This document shows positions 43,062 through 49,003 of a stretch of 49,003 bases of DNA, one piece after another. Each line of letters opens with the position of its first letter. Within the stretch, counting starts at the first letter, position 1. The position numbers and the translations under genes are program-made. This DNA is from Devosia insulae DS-56 (lineage in GTDB: Bacteria > Pseudomonadota > Alphaproteobacteria > Rhizobiales > Devosiaceae): assembly GCF_000970465.2 (NCBI RefSeq), contig NZ_LAJE02000219.1, forward strand, positions 1 to 49,003, given 5' to 3'. The notes beneath the pieces are model-generated. The model searched no databases, was not told the origin of the DNA, and saw only the letters and a list, made by a program, of their open reading frames with translations.

Positions 43062-46000
43062 TCAGCCGAGGCGGCCGCTGGCATGGGCCAGCATGGTGTA
43101 GACGCGGCCGCGATCGCTGAGCAGGTACTCGCGGGTCTCGCCGGCCGGGTTCGATCCGGTGGCGGCGCGCTTCAGCAACTGCTCGAACTCGGCCATGTAG
43201 GTGGCTGACGTCTTGGCGAAGTCGCTGTCGCGCTGGATGCGCTTGCGCACTTCGTCATAGGTCGCCTGGCCGCCCAGCGTGTAGATGCGGCGCGAGAACA
43301 CGTTCTGCTCGCCGGCCTGGTAGCGCTGCCACGCGTCGGCCAGCGCCGCGGGCTCCATCGCCTTGGCGATTTCCTCGGTGAGGGTCGAGAGGTTCTGCGG
43401 CTCGGCGGCGGGAGCCGGCGCCGGAGCAGCTGCCGCAGGGGCAGGGGCTGCCGCGGCAGCCGACGGACCCGACGCATTACGCAGCACGTCACGCAGCCAG
43501 CCGCCACCTTCCTCGGTCTTGGGCGCAGCCGCAGCGGGCTTGGCCTCGGCCACCGGCTGCGGGCGCGGCGCGGTGACCACCGGAGCCGTCACCTCAGGCA
43601 TCGCCGTATAGCGCGGCTGCGTGCGGGCCGGCTCGGCCTTCGGCGGCTCGGCGGCGCGCACCGGCTCCGGACGCGGCTCGGGCCGCGACGGGGCTTCGTC
43701 ACGCGGCGGGCGGCTGGACGAGGGACGACGCTCGTTGAGGTCGTGCGTCGCCGGCTGGGCGCGAACGATGGCGTTGAGTTCGGCCAGGGCCTCGATCTGC
43801 TCGGCCACGACACGACGCATCGCGGCAGCGCTCGACTTGGTCTCTTCCGGCAGCTCCATCACGCCGCGCGCCAGTTCGGAGCGGGTATTCTCGAGTTCCG
43901 AACCCACTTCCTTGGCGGTGGCGCGCATGGCGGTCGCGGTCTCGTTGAAGCGCTGCGTCGCGGCTTCGAGCGCCTGCTGCATCTCGAGGATCATCGTCGC
44001 CTGGGTCTGGCGCAGGGCATCGGCGGCGCGCTGGCTTTCGTTCGCCGCGGTATCGGTGAACGAGCCGAGCTGGGTCGCGACGCGGTGCGACGTGCCGTCC
44101 AGCGCTTCCTCGAGCAGATTGGTGCTCTTGCTGAGCACGGACTGCATCTCGGCGGTCGCGCTGGCGAGAGCGCTCTGCACCTTGTCGGTGGTGCCGGTAA
44201 GGGCCTGCTCCAGCTGACCAGTGGTCTCGCCGAGGGCGTTCTGCACGCGCTCGGCCGTGCTGCTCATCACCGACTCGAGCTGGTTGGTGGTCTCGCCCAG
44301 GGCGTTGTGGACCTTCTCGGCAGTGCTGTTCATCACCGACTCGAGCTGGCTCGTGGTGTTGCCCAAGGCGTTCTGCACCTTCTCGGCCGTGCTGGTGAGC
44401 ACGGATTCGAGCTGGCCGGTGGTCTCGCTCAGGGCGGTCTGCACGGTCTCGGCGGTGTTGGTCAAGACGCTGTGCAGCTGGCCGGTGGTGTCGGCGAGGG
44501 CCGCATTGATGGTGCCCGAGGTCGCTTCCAGCGTCTCGGCGACGCCGGACGTGGTCGAGGCCAGGAGCTGCTCCATCGACTCGCGAGCGGCGACCAGGCG
44601 CTGCTCGGTCTCTTCGACGGTGTCGGAGATCGAGTGGGCGAAGCCGCGCATGCGGGTGTCGATTTCGTCGGCGCGGGCGGTAAAGGCCTGCGCCAGTTCG
44701 TCCATAGCCGACCGGCGCTCATCGAGGTTGGCGAGGGTCAGGGTGCCCGACGCCGAAAGGTTGTGCGCCGCGCTGTCGAGGCTCTTGGCCTCGGCGTCGA
44801 GGTTGCCGAGCATCGAGCCGAACTCGTTGACCATCGAGGCGATCGAAGCCTGCAGCGCCCCGACATGCTCGGTGACCAGACGCCCGGCTTCTTCGGTGGA
44901 GCCGATCGCTTCGCGTACCGTGGTCGAGTAGGTGGCGGTCTGCTGGGCCACCGAGTTCTCGAGGTTGGCGAGGTTCGCCGTCGAGGCGTCGAGCACCTTC
45001 TGCAGCAGCATGTTGGAATCGTTGAGCTTGCCCAGCGCCGTCGTCACATCGGTGAGGATGCGCGAGGTCGACTGGTTCATCAGGTCTTCGGCCTGCGAGG
45101 CGTTGGTGATCAGCGCCTGCGCCAGCACGTTGCCGTGGTTCTGCAGGCTCATCTCGAGCTGCGCCGAGCTGTCGGAGACCAGGGCCGAGAAGGCGTCGGT
45201 CTTTTCCGACACCACGCGGTTGATCTCGGCAACCTTGCCGCCAATGGCGTCGGCAGCGGCCACCGCCTTGATCGAGATCAGCTCATCGATATTGCTCGAG
45301 GCCTGCTGGAACTGGGCGAGGGCGCGGCCCACCGCCACGTCCATGCGGTCGGCGGTCGTGGTGACGTCGTCGGCAATGCCCTGCGTCGCCGAAACGATGC
45401 GGCGGGAGATAGTTTCCTCGATCCGATCGGCGCCGGCCTCGAGGTCGGTCATCGACTGCACCAGCGCGGTGTTGATCGCGGTGTTGAGCGAGGCCAGCCG
45501 CTCGGCCGTGATGTCGGCGCGGGCAGTGATCGCCTCCGGCAGGGTGCCCAGGCGCTGGTCGACCATGTCGGTAATAGCCTTGCGGGCCGAGTTGACGCCG
45601 GTTTCGATGATGTCGGCGGCCTTGCGGGCGCTCTCGCCCACCGTGCCGGCCGCGCCTTCGATGCGGGCGCTCACGCCGGCTTCGGCGTCAGCCATGCGCA
45701 GGATCGCCGTGTCGATGCCACGGCCGAGGCCTTCGCTGACCTCCGAGACCTTGGTTTCGATCAGGGTCGAGACGGCGCCGGCGCGTTCCGACATCACCTC
45801 GGTGACGTTGCGCAGGCTCGCGTCGATCCGGTCGCGAGCCGTCGTGCCCTGGGCGTCGATGGTGCGCGCCAGCTCGCTGGTGCGCTCGCCGATTGCCGCG
45901 GCGATGCCGACAGTATGGCTGCCGAGCGTTTCTGCCAGCTGCTGGGTGCGGGTATTGAGCGCTTCGGCGAGTTCGGCCGAGCGGGTCGACACCGTCGTCG

Positions 46001-48350
46001 CCAACGCCTGGGTGCGCTGGTCGAGGCTGTCGCCGATCTGCCGGGCGTGCTGCTGCAGCGTGGTGTCGATGGCCTGGCTGCGGCGGTCGAGACTGTCGCC
46101 GATCTGGGTCGCGTGCTGCAGCAAAGTCGTGTCGAGCGCGGCAGTCCGCTGGTCGAGGCTGTCACCGAGCTGCTGAGCGTGCTGCAGCATTGCGGCGTCG
46201 AGCGTGGCCGTGCGCTGGTCGAGGCTGTCGCCGATCTGCTGCGCATGCTGCTGCAGCGCCAGGTCGATCGCCTGGGTGCGGGTGGCGACCGATTGGTCGA
46301 GCGCCTGGGTACGGCTGGCCACGGCCTGGTCGAGTTCCTTGGCGCGGCCGGTCAGTACGTTGTCGAACTGTTCGACACGCGAACCGAGCGCCAGGTCGAT
46401 CGCCTGGGCGTGGGTGATGATGTTGGTGTCCATGGCGCGGGCATGGCCGGCAATGGTCACGTCGAACGCTTTCACGTGTTCATCGAGCGCCGCGCTCAGC
46501 TCGCCATGACGGCTGCTCAGCGTCTCGCCCAGCAACTGCGTGCGGGTGTCGAGGGCGTCGGCGATGATCTGCGTGTGGCCTTCGAGCGAGTCCGAGATTT
46601 CCTGCGAACGGTTGGCGATCGCTTCGGTGATCTGCTTGGTGCGCTGGCCGAGCGTCTCGGTCATTTCGCGGGTGCGCTGCGAGACGATCTCGTTGAAGTG
46701 CTCGGACTTCTCGTCGAGCGCCATCTCCAGCACATTGGCGCGGGCGGCAAAGCTCGCATTGTTCTTGTCGAGCGCGGCGATGAGCTTGTCGCCCTTGTCG
46801 CCGATGACGCCGTCGAGGCTGGCGAGCCGGTTGTCGATCACCACCGCGATTTCGTCGAGGCGGGCGTCAAACTGCGCGAGGTTCTGCGAGCCGGCGCCAG
46901 TCAGGGTGACGCGGGCCCGTTCGGTGGTGTCGTCGAGGGCGCCGGAAAGCTCGATCATCGCCGACTGCAGGCGCGATTCCATCGAGTTGACCTGGATCTG
47001 CACCTGCTCGTCGAGCTGGTGGCTGAGTCCCGAAAGCAGCTGCTCGGCCTCGCGGGCGCGGCCGGTGATATCGGACGCGATGCGGGTGCCGATCATATCG
47101 AGGGCGCTCGACACTTCATGGCCGCGGTCGCGCAACTGGTCGAGCAGGGTAATGCCGCCCTGGCTGAGCAGCTTGGCCAGCGACGAGGTGCGGTTGTCGA
47201 TGGCGTCGGAGAGCGTCACGGCGCGGCTGTCGAGCGCTTCGGTCAGCGACTGCATGCGGCCGTCGATCACCGCGCTCAGTTCCTGCGTGCGGTTTTCGAA
47301 GGCGCCCGAAATGGTGCCGGCGCGGTCTTCGAGCGTGATGTTGAGGCGCGAGGCGCTATCGTCGAGGGCCACCAGCAGGTGGCTGGTGCGCTGGTCGATC
47401 AGCGACACGAAGCTCTCGGTGCGCTCGCCGAACGCGCCGTTCAGCGAGTTGCCGGCGGTTTCGAGCGCCTTGGTCAGGTTGCCGCCGGATTCGACGATGG
47501 TGCCGGCGATGCGCTGCGAGATCATATCGAGGTCGAACACGAGGCCGGTATGGCTCTCGGTAATCGCTTCGCGCACGCGCTCGGTATTGGTAATGACGGC
47601 TTCGCGCTGGCTGGCCAGTTCCTGGATCAGCGCGCGCATGCGGGATTCGTTGTCGGAATAGGTGCGTTCGAGCGCGGTGACCTCGTTGTGAATCATCACT
47701 TCGAGCTCGCCGGCGCGCGACAGGGCGCGCTCGAGGCCATCGCCCAGCGCGTTCACTTCGCGGCGCACCGCCTGGCCGACCGACGCGACCTTCTCGGACG
47801 CAGTGGTCTCCGGCTCGGCAAGGCGGATCGCCGCCTGCGTCACGGCGGCCGCGGCGTTGCGCAGGTCCTGCGCGCGGCGGATCAGTGTCGCAATCGCGAA
47901 GATGCCGATCACCGGCACGATCGCGAGCGCCAAGAGGCCGATGAAATCGTTCGACCCCCAGAACGAGGCATTGCCCATGTCGGCGCCGTTGCGGATCATC
48001 GCCACCAGCGCGATCGCCACCACCCAGCCGAGCGCCACCAGCCCGCCTACCATGGTCGGCGCGCCGGACGATTTCGACTGCAAGCCGTAGAGAATTTTGG
48101 AAGAGGGGAAGCGGTCGTCATTGGCGACCGAACCGGTCTGCGCTGCGAACTTGTCGGCAGTGCGCTGACGCTCGGAGCGCGGCGAGTTATCGCGCGGCGG
48201 CAGCTTCGGCGCAGCCTTCTCGACCGGTGGTTCTTCCGCAGCCGCGGGCTGGTCAAGGTTCGCGAAAACCGAGTCCTTCAGCGCGTCCTCGACGGCCGAG
48301 AATGCGAGCGTAGCAGGATCGTTCTGGGGTGTTGCGGTCTTCTTGGCCAT
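43062..48350 (-). CDS. gpr: Growth-pole-ring (GPR)-like giant membrane-anchored coiled-coil protein
   Basis: 1,762 residues. A ~95-residue N-terminal tail (rich in Pro and charged residues) precedes two membrane segments (~99-119 and ~136-157). Then comes ~1,350 residues of almost uninterrupted amphipathic helix with an 11/22-residue period, resembling apolipoprotein A/E repeats, including two blocks of near-exact 22-residue repeats (~690-777 and ~1271-1380). A Pro/Ala-rich linker (~1530-1650) and a ~110-residue globular C-terminus (LSTLTEEIAKAMEPAALADAWQRY...) end the protein. Agrobacterium GPR, a ring-forming protein of ~2,100 residues needed for polar growth, has the same design. A CtrA-type box lies 195 bp upstream and an Hpt gene is divergent. 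Assignment rests on architecture and context, not on an alignment. Confidence 0.78.
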   Translation of the reverse strand: MAKKTATPQNDPATLAFSAVEDALKDSVFANLDQPAAAEEPPVEKAAPKLPPRDNSPRSERQRTADKFAAQTGSVANDDRFPSSKILYGLQSKSSGAPTMVGGLVALGWVVAIALVAMIRNGADMGNASFWGSNDFIGLLALAIVPVIGIFAIATLIRRAQDLRNAAAAVTQAAIRLAEPETTASEKVASVGQAVRREVNALGDGLERALSRAGELEVMIHNEVTALERTYSDNESRMRALIQELASQREAVITNTERVREAITESHTGLVFDLDMISQRIAGTIVESGGNLTKALETAGNSLNGAFGERTESFVSLIDQRTSHLLVALDDSASRLNITLEDRAGTISGAFENRTQELSAVIDGRMQSLTEALDSRAVTLSDAIDNRTSSLAKLLSQGGITLLDQLRDRGHEVSSALDMIGTRIASDITGRAREAEQLLSGLSHQLDEQVQIQVNSMESRLQSAMIELSGALDDTTERARVTLTGAGSQNLAQFDARLDEIAVVIDNRLASLDGVIGDKGDKLIAALDKNNASFAARANVLEMALDEKSEHFNEIVSQRTREMTETLGQRTKQITEAIANRSQEISDSLEGHTQIIADALDTRTQLLGETLSSRHGELSAALDEHVKAFDVTIAGHARAMDTNIITHAQAIDLALGSRVEQFDNVLTGRAKELDQAVASRTQALDQSVATRTQAIDLALQQHAQQIGDSLDQRTATLDAAMLQHAQQLGDSLDQRTAALDTTLLQHATQIGDSLDRRSQAIDTTLQQHARQIGDSLDQRTQALATTVSTRSAELAEALNTRTQQLAETLGSHTVGIAAAIGERTSELARTIDAQGTTARDRIDASLRNVTEVMSERAGAVSTLIETKVSEVSEGLGRGIDTAILRMADAEAGVSARIEGAAGTVGESARKAADIIETGVNSARKAITDMVDQRLGTLPEAITARADITAERLASLNTAINTALVQSMTDLEAGADRIEETISRRIVSATQGIADDVTTTADRMDVAVGRALAQFQQASSNIDELISIKAVAAADAIGGKVAEINRVVSEKTDAFSALVSDSSAQLEMSLQNHGNVLAQALITNASQAEDLMNQSTSRILTDVTTALGKLNDSNMLLQKVLDASTANLANLENSVAQQTATYSTTVREAIGSTEEAGRLVTEHVGALQASIASMVNEFGSMLGNLDAEAKSLDSAAHNLSASGTLTLANLDERRSAMDELAQAFTARADEIDTRMRGFAHSISDTVEETEQRLVAARESMEQLLASTTSGVAETLEATSGTINAALADTTGQLHSVLTNTAETVQTALSETTGQLESVLTSTAEKVQNALGNTTSQLESVMNSTAEKVHNALGETTNQLESVMSSTAERVQNALGETTGQLEQALTGTTDKVQSALASATAEMQSVLSKSTNLLEEALDGTSHRVATQLGSFTDTAANESQRAADALRQTQATMILEMQQALEAATQRFNETATAMRATAKEVGSELENTRSELARGVMELPEETKSSAAAMRRVVAEQIEALAELNAIVRAQPATHDLNERRPSSSRPPRDEAPSRPEPRPEPVRAAEPPKAEPARTQPRYTAMPEVTAPVVTAPRPQPVAEAKPAAAAPKTEEGGGWLRDVLRNASGPSAAAAAPAPAAAAPAPAPAAEPQNLSTLTEEIAKAMEPAALADAWQRYQAGEQNVFSRRIYTLGGQATYDEVRKRIQRDSDFAKTSATYMAEFEQLLKRAATGSNPAGETREYLLSDRGRVYTMLAHASGRLG
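44212..44541 (-). repeat. Five tandem 66-bp repeats inside the gpr-like gene
   Basis: Units begin at 44212, 44278, 44344, 44410 and 44476, each exactly 66 bp apart. They encode 22-residue units of the type TGQLESVLTSTAEKVQNALG. Differences between units are scattered and the spacing never slips, so the period is under selection or recently amplified. Confidence 0.85.
46021..46284 (-). repeat. Four tandem 66-bp repeats inside the gpr-like gene
   Basis: Units begin at 46021, 46087, 46153 and 46219, exactly 66 bp apart. They encode 22-residue units such as QHAQQIGDSLDQRTATLD, and weaker units with the RTQALD pattern continue beyond on the N-terminal side. Confidence 0.85.
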
Positions 48351-48687
48351 AACTCTTTACAACTCTCGCATCGGCACATGGCGGGCGATCAGAGCCTGCA
48401 TTGGACCACTGCCGGGGTTCCGGTTAGCCGTCCAAATTGGGTAAAATGCGATTCAAATGCCCCGCAGTCGACCCATGCCCCACGCCGCCGCACGCTAGGT
48501 GGACCTCAAACATACATACAATTTGAGGCAAACCGAACACGTTCTTAATGGAAGGTTAATTTCCGGTCGGAATGCGGCCGGTTAAGGGCATAGATAAGAT
48601 TGTACCCATTGGTTTTGGCTGCCCTTCATCCGGTCTCGCTAGCTTCCTGCCATAGCCCAGGTCCGGGCGGTAGGAAGGGTTGCGGGG
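48351..48687. other. Divergent intergenic region between the gpr-like and Hpt genes
   Basis: 337 bp without a gene, visibly AT-richer than its surroundings. It contains the TTAA-N7-TTAA site at 48545-48559 and another TTAA at 48582-48585, and must hold promoters for both genes. Confidence 0.6.
48545..48559. promoter_or_regulatory. CtrA-type binding site (TTAA-N7-TTAA)
   Basis: TTAA-TGGAAGG-TTAA matches the full consensus of the alphaproteobacterial cell-cycle regulator CtrA. A further half-site, GTTAAG, lies 23 bp downstream. The site is 195 bp upstream of the gpr-like start and 129 bp upstream of the Hpt gene start, so either or both could be controlled. Confidence 0.6.
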
Positions 48688-49003
48688 ATGGTTAGGAATA
48701 CAGCAGTCAAAGCCGGGGCAGGGTCTGCCTCCCGGGACGTTTCCCATGCTCCCATCGACATGGACCATCTCGACCAGCAGTCGCTCGGCGATCCGGGGCT
48801 GCGCGACGAAGTCCTCCGGCTCTACGCCCAGATGTCGGGTGTTTACCTCGGCCGTATCGAGGAAAGCACCTCGATCCCGCTGCTGCTCGAGCACCTGCAT
48901 ACGTTGAAAAGCGCTGCCGCCGGGATCGGCGCCTGGGGCGTCCGCGACCTCGCCAAGCGCGCCGACGACGCGCAGCGCCTCGGCGAGCCGGTCACTCCCG
49001 AGC
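48688..49003 (+). CDS. Hpt (histidine phosphotransfer) domain protein, 3' end outside window
   Basis: The frame runs from an ATG at 48688 to the window edge without a stop (105 residues seen). After a ~22-residue tail the sequence IDMDHLDQQSLGDPGLRDEV, YLGRIEE and LLEHLHTLKSAAAGIGAWGV...RADDA is a typical Hpt four-helix domain. His71 in HTLKSAA is the phosphorylated residue, followed by the conserved Lys and the Ala/Gly pair. It relays phosphate between hybrid kinases and response regulators. No kinase is next to it in the window. A weak GGAAGGG lies upstream. It is divergent from the gpr-like gene and may share its CtrA-type control. Confidence 0.82.
   Translation, partial: MVRNTAVKAGAGSASRDVSHAPIDMDHLDQQSLGDPGLRDEVLRLYAQMSGVYLGRIEESTSIPLLLEHLHTLKSAAAGIGAWGVRDLAKRADDAQRLGEPVTPE

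Follow-up and report, generated by a model that had tools for sequence, protein, structure and literature searches.

In the Devosiaceae, the long helical rod of the growth pole ring protein GPR changes in length almost only by whole 11-residue steps. The gene on which the analysis centres lies in a 49,003-nucleotide stretch of the Devosia insulae DS-56 genome (contig NZ_LAJE02000219.1, positions 1 to 49,003 of the forward strand; hereafter the window), where an ATG-initiated frame at 43062..48350 on the minus strand encodes a protein of 1,762 residues. An earlier reading of the letters alone, made without database searches (the sequence-only reading), had this frame exactly right in coordinates, strand and length, and proposed that its product is GPR-like. 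Homology supports that identity: the protein appears to be the Devosia orthologue of GPR from Agrobacterium tumefaciens and of RgsE from Sinorhizobium meliloti. The gene is single copy in its own 5.75-Mb genome.

Rod length was measured between two anchors, from the arginine of an ALER motif to the proline of an LPEE motif. The former belongs to a conserved N-module (residues 71–300; 47451..48140, minus strand, as are all features of this gene), which combines a pair of membrane segments with the signature RLAEPE / VGQAVRREV / ALER.YS.NE. The latter lies in a pre-linker helix (residues 1441–1540; 43731..44030) with the consensus ELE.TR.EL..LPEET..MRR.V..QI.AL; both modules were recognised by phmmer, alignment and profile. 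The 158 frames that carry the C-terminal domain yielded 147 rod lengths, six frames being dropped because they lacked the N-module, three because they lacked the pre-linker helix and two for a gap at an anchor column. The loci L019, a weak match, and L007, whose contig ends before the C-terminal domain, were left out of the rod analysis.

The 95 Devosiaceae rods have 65 distinct lengths, between 898 and 1,723 residues. Taken modulo 11, they fall into class 3 (42 rods), class 7 (41), class 0 (11) and, for L147 only, class 5. Classes 0, 3 and 7 correspond to whole turns of an 11/3 helix, with 3.667 residues per turn, and we conclude that length drifts while helical phase is kept. The Rayleigh R at 11/3 is 0.908 for these rods and 0.174 for the Pro/Ala-rich linker (about residues 1541–1650; 43401..43730), a segment with indels of many sizes that served as an internal control. 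Across 43 disjoint pairs of Devosiaceae proteins, the rod has 150 indels, of which 134 span a multiple of 11 residues, the commonest sizes being 11 (53) and 22 (36); of 194 linker indels, only 5 do so. A rule of one class per genus was rejected, the largest Devosiaceae genus holding both classes 3 and 7.

In the Devosiaceae, the C-side of the rod obeys the rule in every case. To separate the two sides, rods were split at a mid-rod module (about residues 1090–1255; 44586..45083), delimited by a profile match and by a loss of the 11-residue periodicity, which is weak there. In each of the 95 Devosiaceae proteins, the distance from this module to LPEE is 181 residues plus some multiple of 11, and the 335 residues of the window protein correspond to 181 plus 14 extra 11-residue units. 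A profile built on residues 1060–1260 matches all 158 GPR frames, with a lowest best-domain score of 16 bits, and placement of the module is ambiguous in 12 of 59 proteins from other families. The module is not described in the sections examined of PMC7327166 and PMC8262873.

Recent change of this kind can be located. The sequence-only reading had described two blocks of exact 22-residue repeats, with four and five units. Block 1 (46012..46288) consists of four 66-bp units at exact 66-bp spacing, the other three sharing 72, 75 and 85% of their sequence with the reference copy. Block 2 (44208..44501), which sits in the C-side expansion, is a 66-bp array of 4.5 copies with 77% matches according to Tandem Repeats Finder, or five units by eye in the translation. 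The exact register and the unit counts thus stand, whereas the units themselves are similar, not identical. The best Tandem Repeats Finder score in the rod is 313. Of 200 codon shuffles, 36 reach 50 and the highest scores 92; when position within the 11-residue unit is preserved, 33 of 200 shuffles reach 50 and the highest scores 69. Residue identity within the rod is 0.163 at lag 11 and 0.209 at lag 22, against 0.096 at lag 7 and an expected 0.082. A relative with 96% identity to the window protein (L003) has one extra 22-residue unit in block 1; another with 89% identity (L002) is shorter by 44 residues in block 1 and by 22 in block 2. These differences place recent change in the repeat blocks; in a third relative, with 98.5% identity (L006), the rod is the same as in the window. 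The suggestion that repeat number could vary between strains is borne out between species, but the few strains that could be compared within a species show no difference: RgsE of S. meliloti Ak57, at 2,089 residues, is as long as the protein reported from a different strain of that species (PMC7327166), and Sinorhizobium sp. K101 and C101 have identical frames.

The rod itself (residues 229–1501; 43848..47666) is supported by its match to the apolipoprotein family PF01442, by its periodicity and by AlphaFold2. The PF01442 match reaches 160.6 bits, the cut-off being 90, with nine stretches in the rod and an E-value of 4.8e-47. The rod contains two prolines, at 938 and at 1501, the latter being the end anchor, and neither cysteine nor tryptophan. 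Its hydrophobicity peaks at a period of 3.662 residues (power 120). Among 187 rods, the peak lies within 3.65–3.685 in 171 and within 3.48–3.52 in none; on this ground, and on that of the 11-residue indels, a heptad coiled coil was rejected.

Outside the Devosiaceae, rods follow the same period more weakly. The 52 whole rods from other families give R 0.471 at 11/3 (p 9.6e-6), compared with 0.036 for their linkers. Most rod variation in these families is carried by the N-side, where 37 distinct and unambiguous lengths give R 0.56 (p 9e-6), and a scan of periods from 2 to 16 peaks at 3.666, a height reached by none of 20,000 jittered sets. In the family of the genome G021, here termed Rhizobiaceae since G021 is nearest to Sinorhizobium and Shinella, 40 proteins with 38 distinct N-side lengths give R 0.51 (p 5e-5). 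In the order sample, rod length ranges between 297 and 2,294 residues; Rhizobiaceae rods reach 2,795. The four rods L194–L197, of genus g95, peak in hydrophobicity at 3.628 instead of the usual ∼3.66, perhaps reflecting another mix of repeat units. Among L194–L233, the distance from the mid module to LPEE is 170, 232 or 294 residues in 31 of 40 proteins, and the 62-residue steps between these values equal 17 turns of an 11/3 helix.

Several points weigh against a strict and general phase rule or limit the evidence for a phase-continuous GPR rod. Outside the Devosiaceae the 11/3 rule is only partial. N-side lengths of other families spread over 10 of the 11 classes, and the 40 Rhizobiaceae whole rods score as well at period 7 (R 0.377) as at 11/3 (0.375). 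The C-side of other families at first seems quantised, with 34 of 51 proteins in one class, but this mostly reflects a constant length, exactly 181 residues in 32 of 55 proteins. It vanishes when that length is removed, the 19 distinct lengths left giving R 0.23 (p 0.37) and the 11 unambiguous ones 0.479 (p 0.08), and we rejected it. Fifteen of the 187 rods peak at 3.57–3.63. In the window rod the local phase drifts by ∼135° and fades in the mid module, so that register is not strictly constant. The p-values assume independence and are too small for that reason, related sequences not being independent, least of all within the Devosiaceae. An AlphaFold2 model of residues 560–900, predicted as one 334-residue helix with a mean pLDDT of 78, is weak evidence, coming from a single sequence and one chain. 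A bias of recombination towards 33-bp units could, without selection, also yield steps of 11. Finally, the link to Agrobacterium GPR runs by way of RgsE.

The whole window protein matches S. meliloti RgsE by BLASTP with an E-value of 4e-89, and identity by module to RgsE of strain Ak57 is 54% in the N-module, 26% in the mid-rod module, 47% in the pre-linker helix and 44% in the C-terminal domain. The GPR-like identity proposed at the outset was thus upheld outside the low-complexity helix: N-module, pre-linker helix and C-terminal domain all match RgsE, with which the comparison was made, and its relatives. When the C-terminal 112 residues were used in a tblastn search of plasmid records, five chromosome-sized records were found, four from Sinorhizobium and one from Shinella, each matching at 44.5% identity with E-values from 8e-26 to 5e-25. 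The Ak57 rgsE gene is annotated as 'kinesin' (L109:6067-12336), and its 3.7-Mb record is filed as plasmid pSymB. In the laboratory strain S. meliloti Rm2011, rgsE is reportedly not essential, its loss leaving growth slow. RgsE (SMc00190) shares with the window protein the order of modules, the N-module, mid-rod module, pre-linker helix and C-terminal domain, and a divergent Hpt gene. It differs in length (2,089 against 1,762 residues), with a longer N-side of the rod (1,279 against 937) and a shorter C-side (294 against 335). RgsE has been called a homologue of GPR, with 42% identity, and depletion of either causes similar defects in cell shape (PMC7327166). GPR (Atu1348) resembles the window protein in its published layout of two N-terminal membrane segments, an apolipoprotein-like helix, a Pro-rich stretch and a functional C-terminus; it is known here from that description, which gives it 2,115 residues, 1,700 of them helix, and a 200-nm ring of six foci (PMC8262873). 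The window protein is thus several hundred residues shorter than both, as the sequence-only reading had stated with regard to GPR.

The layout which that reading described, two membrane segments followed by a long helix, a Pro/Ala-rich linker and a C-terminal domain, is borne out by hydropathy, PF01442, translation and conservation alike. Hydrophobic 19-residue windows above 1.6 start at residues 95–105 and 130–142, marking a first membrane segment at about residues 99–119 (47994..48056) and a second, also seen in alignments, at about 135–158 (47877..47948). An RR..LR stretch follows the second segment, and for this reason the rod is taken to be cytoplasmic. A Pro-rich stretch precedes the C-terminus in the translation. 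The C-terminal domain (residues 1651–1762; 43065..43400) is conserved across the order and is predicted by AlphaFold2, with 16 sequences, to be all helical (mean pLDDT 53). A PDB profile search with this domain returned nothing credible (best E 0.007, glutamate dehydrogenase), and Pfam gave no convincing family, the best E-value among 28 members scanned singly being 0.0089.

We consider it probable that GPR is a membrane-anchored rod of phase-continuous hendecads that serves as a polar scaffold. Two N-terminal helices would anchor the protein in the inner membrane, a topology suggested by hydropathy, and the rod would run through the cytoplasm to a helical C-terminal domain carried on a flexible linker. 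An α-helix rises by 0.15 nm per residue, which at full extension would make the ∼1,270-residue rod (1,272 residues as a helix) about 190 nm long. The rod would be a hendecad helix, with 11 residues to three turns, most likely assembled into a multimeric coiled rod. As GPR genes gain and lose 33-bp units, off-register indels would be rejected by selection, keeping phase and leaving length free, so that phase may link the membrane anchor to the distal modules. By homology, such a scaffold may keep the synthesis of wall and membrane at the growing pole of a cell that has no MreB. What is observed directly is the homology, the module order, the periodicity, the step-wise change of length and the absence of an MreB match; membrane topology, polar position, multimeric state, selection for phase and the scaffold role are our reading of these.

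It is possible, if appreciably less probable, that the rod is instead stretched out along the membrane, an amphipathic 11/3 helix that organises lipid. Apolipoproteins, whose amphipathic periodicity is of 11 or 22 residues, are like synuclein and perilipin amphipathic 11/3 helices. The window rod shares this periodicity and scores above the gathering cut-off of PF01442 (A1/A4/E), and its only PDB matches at E ≤0.001 are both to ApoA-IV (8.7e-6 and 1.7e-4). Arginine and histidine flank its hydrophobic positions, and acidic residues occupy the opposite face; the same length steps would be expected of a straight 11/3 helix on the membrane, and the authors of the GPR study favour a lipid role (PMC8262873). 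The window protein differs from the apolipoproteins in its giant size, in its membrane segments and in having N- and C-modules of its own. Its hydrophobic stripe is narrow, with two of 11 positions above 45% LIVMF and two more at 32–34%; this speaks against a membrane-lying helix and does not decide the matter.

We think it rather unlikely that the 11-residue steps are a mere by-product of unequal recombination between 33- or 66-bp repeats, phase not being selected. Clear 66-bp arrays exist in the DNA at the sites of change, and the predominance of 11- and 22-residue indels is what such exchange would leave. Small indels do, however, arise: the linker has its 194 in 7,211 aligned residues, whereas 55,519 rod residues hold 16 indels that are not multiples of 11, although the linker may be more indel-prone. 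Moreover, classes 0, 3 and 7 are spaced by 3–4 residues, or one helical turn, a spacing that recombination in 33-bp units does not give. That the protein is a generic long coiled coil, such as a ZorA-like protein, resembling GPR only through low complexity, is hardly credible. ZorA matches exist and are weak, at 28.1 and 19.2 bits against cut-offs of 190 and 250, which excludes ZorA or another defence protein by score. The RgsE matches fall outside the rod, a neighbouring gene is common to both loci, and the homology of N- and C-modules contradicts a generic coiled coil.

GPR is widespread. The C-terminal domain was found in 60 of the 61 order genomes sampled, in 118 of 120 Devosiaceae genomes (three of which have extra, weaker copies, perhaps on foreign contigs), in 293 of 296 Rhizobiaceae genomes, and, beyond the order, in 57 of 142 genomes from the rest of the class. 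Among 20 of these 57 outside loci that were examined, the N-module is present in 16 and the pre-linker helix (E <1e-3) in six; the frames have a median of 996 residues, and seven of the 57 exceed 1,500. Scanning species genomes yielded 18 loci, of which 11 are from Devosia and the rest from Hyphomicrobiales or Rhizobiales bins, Arsenicitalea, one bin filed as Burkholderiales, and a weak match in Cupriavidus (29%) that was set aside. The N-module was found by phmmer in 71 of 78 proteins, including that of the window, and by profile in 152 of 158, the six misses being frames cut by a contig start; the pre-linker helix was found in 72 of 78 and 155 of 158, respectively.

The genome of the window strain has no MreB match at 1e-30. 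Weaker matches to the MreB query lie in frames of 636, 443 and 469 residues, the first two of which were read, by size only, as DnaK and FtsA. Rgs proteins and MreB have been called mutually exclusive on the basis of four Rhizobiales species with MreB (PMC7327166), and a predicted loss of mreB has been marked within the Rhizobiales (PMC12130487). MreB is present in 10 of the 61 order genomes, and all ten have the C-terminal domain of GPR, nine with the N-module and the tenth cut; this coexistence qualifies the published exclusion. With the truncated frames of G022, G045 and G055 dropped, GPR frames have a median length of 1,103 residues in genomes with MreB (n=9) and 1,812.5 in those without (n=48; Mann-Whitney p 0.0023). 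In the gene tree, one clade (support 0.765) holds most of the order's long rods, and MreB is present in none of its 32 genomes, compared with 9 of 25 elsewhere. We considered whether MreB loss drives rod growth and rejected it, leaving an association: the long rods cluster in that clade; G001 and its sister G049 are alike in length (934 and 927) yet differ in MreB; and all seven frames above 1,500 residues outside the order are in genomes with MreB. Within the order, 16 of the 25 genomes outside the long-rod clade also lack MreB, three of them with frames above 1,800 residues.

Divergent from the GPR gene, at 48688..49002 on the plus strand and running off the window, is a gene for an Hpt-domain protein (PF01627, 25.2 bits against a cut-off of 24.6). 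Of the 146 loci with sufficient flanking sequence, mostly from Devosiaceae, 135 have a divergent Hpt-like frame beside GPR, and such a frame occurs somewhere in 46 of 58 loci of the order sample; S. meliloti Ak57 also has an annotated divergent Hpt gene upstream of rgsE. This conserved neighbour might tie GPR to a phosphorelay. An antisense frame of 1,601 residues (43743-48548, plus strand) is codon-aligned with the GPR gene; we take it for a shadow of codon usage and not for evidence of a gene, since the GPR gene contains no TTA, no CTA and only one TCA codon.

Among the papers listed in searches on hendecads, on RgsE, and on polar growth with MreB, none was seen to describe 11-residue quantisation in GPR, and the terms 'repeats', 'hendecad', 'periodicity' and '11-residue' are absent from the main text of PMC8262873. 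The search found no paper linking RgsE with Devosia, and matches for Devosia with polar growth were unrelated by title and abstract. Small deletions in the coiled coil of GPR have been made, one of which was called, with surprise, the most severe in an interference assay (PMC8262873). Their sizes are given inconsistently in that paper, as 21 residues in the abstract, 20 in the results and 21 by coordinates, and one appears both as 413-433 and as 413-434, the latter spanning 22 residues and being in phase. Given this inconsistency, the published deletions neither support nor contradict the phase rule, which offers a lead for re-reading them and not an explanation of them.

That rod length sets the size of the polar ring, as the sequence-only reading suggested, is speculative. 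We regard as doubtful the broader idea that GPR is a phase-locked ruler, in which selection would fix the angle between anchor and modules, length would be tuned freely in 11-residue steps and would set the polar growth zone's radius or reach, and rod lengthening in one large clade would have accompanied both MreB loss and the emergence of polar growth. GPR is central to how the Hyphomicrobiales grow from one pole without MreB, and the phase rule makes its rod open to experiment: a 22-residue deletion within it would be expected to be mild, and one of 20 or 21 residues harmful.
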